This document shows, piece after piece, positions 50,071-50,363 of a stretch of 64,000 bases of DNA (the stretch's first letter is position 1; each line of letters starts with the position of its first letter). The stretch is taken from assembly GCF_024436055.1 (NCBI RefSeq), contig NZ_JANFNH010000012.1, positions 1 through 64,000 on the forward strand. The letters are read 5' to 3'. The notes beneath the pieces were generated by a model. It saw only the letters and a list, made by a program, of their open reading frames with translations, was not told the origin of the DNA and made no database searches. Source of the stretch: Streptantibioticus rubrisoli. Lineage in GTDB: Bacteria; Actinomycetota; Actinomycetes; Streptomycetales; Streptomycetaceae. A program made the translations under genes and the position numbers.

Positions 50071-50363
50071 GTGGTGGCGGTCTTCGCCGCGTACGCGGTG
50101 AGCCGCTACCGCTTCCGCGGGCGGCGGGTGTTCACGGTGACGGTGCTGTCCACGCAGACGTTCCCGGGGATCCTCTTCCCCGTGATGGCCAACGACACCA
50201 CCCGCACCCTGGCCGTGGGTCTCCGGGCTACGCCAGTCAGACCGATGTGTACTGGGACCAGGTTATGGCGGCCTCGCTGGTGGTGAGCGTGCCCGTCGTC
50301 GCCGGGTTCCTGCTGTTGCAGCGCTGTCTGGTCGCCGGTCTGACCGCCGGTGCCGTCAAGTGA
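50071..50363 (+). pseudogene. Remnant of a MalG-type sugar ABC permease
   Basis: The first part encodes FAAYAVSRYRFRGRR and then STQTFPGILF, typical of the N-terminal helices of MalG/CebG-like permeases. It runs directly into VMANDTTRTLAVGL, which in the family comes just before the last helix. Roughly 75-80 residues, including the ATPase-contacting EAA loop, are thus missing. Near 50220 the frame shifts by one, and the family C-terminus continues as YASQTDVYWDQVMAASLVVS to [11 protein letters not shown], ending in TGA at 50361-50363. The normal N-terminus is also absent. The GH1 gene starts 19 nt later. I infer a decayed sugar-uptake operon. Confidence 0.72.

Follow-up and report, generated by a model that had tools for sequence, protein, structure and literature searches.

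What remains of a sugar-uptake locus when its transporter has gone, and can the original locus still be recognized? The question arises from a stretch of 64,000 nucleotides of Streptantibioticus rubrisoli (the window), in which scraps of a permease gene precede an intact gene for a GH1 beta-glucosidase. Comparison with related genomes suggests, with a probability that we put at about 0.94, that this region is what is left of a five-gene sugar-uptake locus, broken up by two deletions and a frame change in the course of ordinary operon decay.

Results

The scraps derive from one permease gene

Translation of 49961-50380 in three frames yielded permease-like sequence that spans 50071 to about 50219 in one frame and about 50217 to 50360 in another. 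The initial annotation had described 50071-50363 as two pieces of a single permease joined by an internal deletion and a frameshift. Its boundaries are right, as homology begins at 50072 and the former stop codon occupies 50361-50363, and so is the reading itself. When permease 2 of the sister species Streptomyces sp. RPT161 (G001) was compared with 50021-50382 by tblastn, the best piece was 90% identical (84.7 bits, query 233-280), the second 88% identical (50.1 bits, query 96-121) and a small middle piece 75% identical (29.3 bits, query 216-235). Some tblastn match was obtained with 166 of 500 dinucleotide shuffles. Their top score was 28.9 bits, which the two main pieces exceed by far and the small middle piece only just; the latter is backed by collinear DNA in relatives.

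Aligned with the permeases encoded upstream of GH1 genes in relatives, as the initial annotation had proposed, the pieces fit one orthologous permease. In a DNA search of 41 genomes (the window's own included, 39 with a match), the flanks of 50179/50180 lie 294 bases apart in the seven genomes for which this spacing was worked out (G001, G002, G009, G013, G017, G022 and G024). The permease 2 gene is open across 840 bases in all 11 relatives translated. Piece C (Table 1) matched the NCBIfam MalG model PRK10998 at 6e-07 (29.3 bits, against a full-length cut-off of 261; profile positions 254-295 of 296) and piece A at 0.02 only; the Pfam permease model BPD_transp_1 gave no match to the fossil pieces, and the intact sister orthologue matches PF00528 at 4.2e-19. 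The family match, together with the disruption of a frame that is open in the orthologues, identifies a pseudogene of a MalG-type ABC sugar permease. These comparisons confirm that 50072-50363 consists of pieces of one permease of the MalG type, broken by a deletion and a frame change. The one-base frame change could be a sequencing error, the analysis resting on a single draft assembly of 103 contigs; such an error is a less likely source of the two large deletions.

Table 1. Positions in the window of the scar and of the genes on either side.
Feature	Position	Strand	Remarks
KDPG/KHG aldolase-type gene	49221-49847	-	208-aa open frame; 88% identity to G001 (tblastn)
ROK-family regulator, 3' remnant	49934-50075	-	about the last 47 codons, with small indels; DNA alignment to L033 4823-4965
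Permease-2 fossil, piece A	50072-50179	+	residues ~86-121 of 279; ungapped match to permease 2 of G001 and G002
Second-deletion junction	50179-50180		294 bases (98 codons) missing
Permease-2 fossil, piece B	50180-50219	+	frame shared with piece A
One-base frame change, piece B to piece C	50220-50225	+	6 bases, against 7 in G001 and G002
Permease-2 fossil, piece C	50226-50363	+	former C-terminus and stop codon; 90% identity to permease 2 of G001
GH1 beta-glucosidase gene	50383-51756	+	457 aa; last gene of the putative former operon; intact, frame open throughout

The locus is whole in related genomes

In RPT161 (loci L033 and L051, the latter equated with G001 because all six proteins compared are 100% identical) the KDPG aldolase gene comes first and is followed by a minus-strand regulator gene; the plus strand then encodes the binding protein, permease 1, permease 2 and GH1. 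The regulator belongs to the ROK family (Pfam, 1.1e-52), the binding protein matches SBP_bac_1 and both permeases match BPD_transp_1. The gene order in G002 is the same. Stretches from 15 relatives were compared (G033 and G035, which had a permease match in the DNA search, were left out) and GH1 was present in 12 of them. All 12 carry the binding protein and both permeases, and 11 carry the ROK regulator, for which tblastn found no match in G011. In the three remaining stretches, G026, G029 and G037 (L049, L047 and L048), the transporter family is present and no GH1 match was seen in the 19 kb compared; ROK matches flank the transporter on both sides in G029, and G026 has no ROK match.

The association extends beyond these genomes. 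Among the best 80 of 593 GH1 loci, which partly overlap the compared genomes (L051 being G001, for example), 39 encode a GH1 protein at least 64% identical to that of RPT161, and in 38 of the 39 a permease 2 at least 68% identical is encoded just upstream. In the other 41 of these 80 loci, permease 2 had no match or one of 26-32%.

Two deletions removed the regulator, a probable promoter region and the importer

The window and RPT161 are collinear from 45301 to 58988, the end of the compared stretch; they share synteny and gene order, the surrounding blocks are 89-92% identical in nucleotide sequence and the GH1 proteins 88% identical. Synteny was seen on both flanks with G001, G002 and G017. 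DNA alignment with RPT161 establishes two large gaps in the window, one of 3,854 bases (L033 4966-8819) and one of 294 bases (L033 8928-9221), with the losses that they entail. The first makes the ROK gene's 3' end run into permease 2 at about codon 86, at a junction where four bases (TGGT, about 50072-50075) overlap as judged by eye; the second has no clear overlap at its junction. In contrast to the RPT161 locus, the window lacks the putative promoter block and the genes for the binding protein and permease 1; its regulator gene is mostly gone, and permease 2 has lost about two thirds of its length and is otherwise in pieces. The ROK remnant was seen by DNA alignment; tblastn with the ROK protein gave no match at 49934-50075. 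This decay is absent from both sister species examined.

The claim that the binding protein and the first permease are gone is thereby borne out, both falling inside the 3,854-base gap, and the glucosidase does stand without its neighbouring transporter. The loss of the ROK regulator and of the putative promoter/operator block was missed by the initial annotation. No close copy of the importer was found in the genome itself: the best other match to the sister's permease 2 is 39% identical and lies beside genes for a GH13-like enzyme and LacI-like proteins, and the best other match to its binding protein is 30% identical and lies beside a GntR-like gene (roles assigned by eye). We infer that the importer no longer works.

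Next to this region, the P450-like gene at 47937-49082 aligns to two adjoining stretches of G002 (87% and 75%; L034 126-2626) and to one in G001.

The spacer between the ROK and binding protein genes holds a conserved block, which was recognized from 10-mers common to the relatives and by visual inspection. In all 11 relatives examined it contains a TTGAC box (counted by eye from raw spacers, since some aligned slices cut the box off), followed by half-sites resembling TTAAATCACG and GAATTAAG, which vary in G005, G009, G016 and G022. No perfect inverted repeat with 7-base arms is common to these spacers. The operator pattern occurs without mismatch once each in G001 and G002, in the same spacer, and with 2 mismatches elsewhere at two sites in G001 and one in G002. 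It was not found in the window at up to 3 mismatches, nor in the whole of the own genome at up to 2, and a longer promoter pattern was likewise not found in the window. The block may combine the promoter with a ROK operator.

The KDPG aldolase gene was assigned from two NCBIfam matches, PRK06552 at 2.3e-45 and TIGR01182 (eda) at 148 bits, neither of which reaches its curated cut-off. In RPT161 this gene starts about 90 bases past the end of the ROK gene; because it lies there directly downstream of ROK on the same strand, it may have been deprived of an upstream promoter by the same deletion. Its codon changes on the window's branch are 10 nonsynonymous and 12 synonymous, compared with 3 and 11 on that of G001.

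The GH1 gene is still constrained

The gene that the initial annotation had called intact is open throughout. Its product matches TIGR03356 at 9.3e-191 (634.3 bits, cut-off 478.5) and PF00232 at 8.3e-157, and contains TLNEP and VTENG, which we take to be the two catalytic glutamate motifs of GH1; on these grounds it is placed in GH1. The genome has a single other GH1 match (G000:C8:82285-83616; L045 18261-19613), 51% identical, which adjoins a frame that by eye looks acyl-CoA synthetase-like; inspection by eye of the frames of at least 200 aa on one side of it revealed no transporter gene.

Codon changes were counted by parsimony and the counts are small; the fossil set comprises 92 whole codons, of which 14 ambiguous ones were set aside in each count. 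Along the window's branch the fossil has accumulated 6 changes that are nonsynonymous and 4 that are synonymous, compared with 0 and 10 in the same 92 codons on the G001 branch (Fisher p 0.011), and it does not differ from the neutral ratio (p 0.48). The permease scraps thus look relaxed. Of 56 residues invariant in 11 relatives, 4 are changed in the fossil; this measure alone is weak because the open gene of G011 has 4 changed of 60, the other ten controls having 0-2.

The GH1 gene has 18 nonsynonymous and 25 synonymous changes on the window's branch, compared with 9 and 31 in G001 (p 0.067), and departs from the neutral ratio (p 1e-5): it is under purifying selection on this branch. Of the residues invariant in 5 others, 10 are changed on the window's branch and 6 in G001. 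Five neighbouring genes (P450, KDPG aldolase, allantoicase, allantoinase and IclR, named by eye except for the KDPG aldolase; a GPx-like gene without a G002 counterpart was left out) went from 31:97 in G001 to 58:103 on the window's branch (p 0.040). Part of the GH1 rise is therefore regional, and the GH1 ratio does not differ from that of these neighbours (18:25 vs 58:103, p 0.48). That the GH1 gene has been held under constraint longer than the permease gave p 0.108 or 0.024, depending on the baseline, and p 0.48 when the two ratios were compared directly; the evidence is suggestive, not decisive.

The lost importer is probably not a Ceb system

The initial annotation had compared the arrangement with cellobiose-uptake operons and the permease with MalG and CebG. 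The MalG part stands and the CebG part finds no support. That the fossil is a CebEFG-BglC operon is very unlikely, even though the CebR-CebEFG-BglC locus of Streptomyces panaciradicis (L118) has the same general order of binding protein, two permeases and GH1, a permease of the MalG family and a local regulator. L118 has a LacI-type regulator where the sister locus has ROK, and a binding protein of another subfamily; the permease is 29% identical to its CebG, and the GH1 protein 55% identical to its GH1, against 88% to the sister's. The L118 binding protein matches 8BFY at 1.4e-121, and 8BFY is CebE of S. scabiei (PMC10714786); the sister's binding protein matches CebE at only 24.6 bits (E 0.005). 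At E 0.001, CebE had no match in the own genome (G000), G001 or G002, the search in CebE's own genome serving as positive control. These comparisons lend the cellobiose assignment no support.

The best solved match of the lost binding protein, represented by the sister's copy, is Lin1841 of Listeria innocua (5ysb, 6e-31). Lin1841 is described as binding beta-1,2-glucooligosaccharides (PMC12369401), and a beta-1,2-glucan-associated cluster of S. griseus, SGR_2423-2426, holds a GH1 gene, so that GH1 adjoins an ABC importer there as in the sister locus; both systems are distant from that locus. This distant match makes a beta-1,2-glucooligosaccharide (sophorose) importer a candidate. The beta-1,2-glucan system was not adopted: 8KAP and 9U98, the codes given for SGR_2426 in PMC12369401, are absent from the best 60 of 78 GH1 matches. 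Because of this absence and of the distance of Lin1841 the substrate is kept open, as a putative beta-glucoside of unassigned linkage. The structure 9j3w had also been considered as the S. griseus GH1, and was ruled out by the structure codes in PMC12369401; a literature search with 9J3W and five related codes found no paper on this structure, one of the listed papers holding 6M6L. A search on ROK/GH1/ABC operons found no title on the present locus, and we do not claim that the ROK locus is undescribed.

Discussion

To judge by the sister species, the ancestor would have had a ROK regulator gene and an operon on either side of a divergent promoter/operator, the regulator gene on the minus strand and the operon, with genes for the binding protein, both permeases and GH1, on the plus strand. 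One deletion of 3.85 kb would have joined the ROK tail to the middle of permease 2, taking out the promoter and operator, the genes for the binding protein and permease 1 and the greater part of the regulator gene; the 294-base deletion and the one-base frame change would have broken what remained of permease 2. We propose no order for these events. The GH1 gene may now be read from another promoter, or may be on its way out; if it is dying, the onset would be recent, given the constraint that its sequence still shows on this branch.

Could the locus be whole in the organism and collapsed by the assembler? The genome is a draft of 103 contigs, judged here from the assembly alone, yet the two separate deletions and the frame change lie within one contig of 147,518 bases, the missing parts have no close copy elsewhere in the assembly, and 6 amino acids have changed in the permease pieces but none in the sister, so that such an artefact is extremely improbable. 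It is also most doubtful that either short frame left in the scar (50071-50286 or 50247-50363) continues to be translated, whether into a small protein or into a leader aiding GH1 expression. A frame of 71 codons does open at 50071, and another of 38 codons runs to the former stop, 19 bases before the GH1 start; against this, amino acids have changed at positions invariant in 11 relatives, and 49840-50500 holds no sigma-70-type promoter pattern, a scan confined to that promoter type and saying little in such an organism. An unlikely alternative would be that the scar of about 535 bases (49848-50382) has been re-wired and now serves the KDPG aldolase and GH1 genes as a new regulatory region lying divergently between them, the transporter-free glucosidase being kept for another job, such as deglucosylating compounds made inside the cell. 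Decay of a ROK-associated uptake operon is the reading we retain.

The locus is a clean case of a species whose enzyme gene has outlasted its regulator, predicted promoter and importer, and sister species still show the ancestral arrangement. It is ordinary in kind, and the operon fossil opens no new kind of biology; it cautions that an intact GH1 gene is not by itself a sign of sugar use, and it replaces an annotation made by analogy with cellobiose uptake by a separate, putative ROK-associated beta-glucoside system. A second orphan was encountered in Rhizohabitans arisaemae (L084), the single exception among the 39 GH1 loci mentioned above: its GH1 gene, at 7001-8326 (67% identity), has no match to the binding protein or to either permease in 15 kb.
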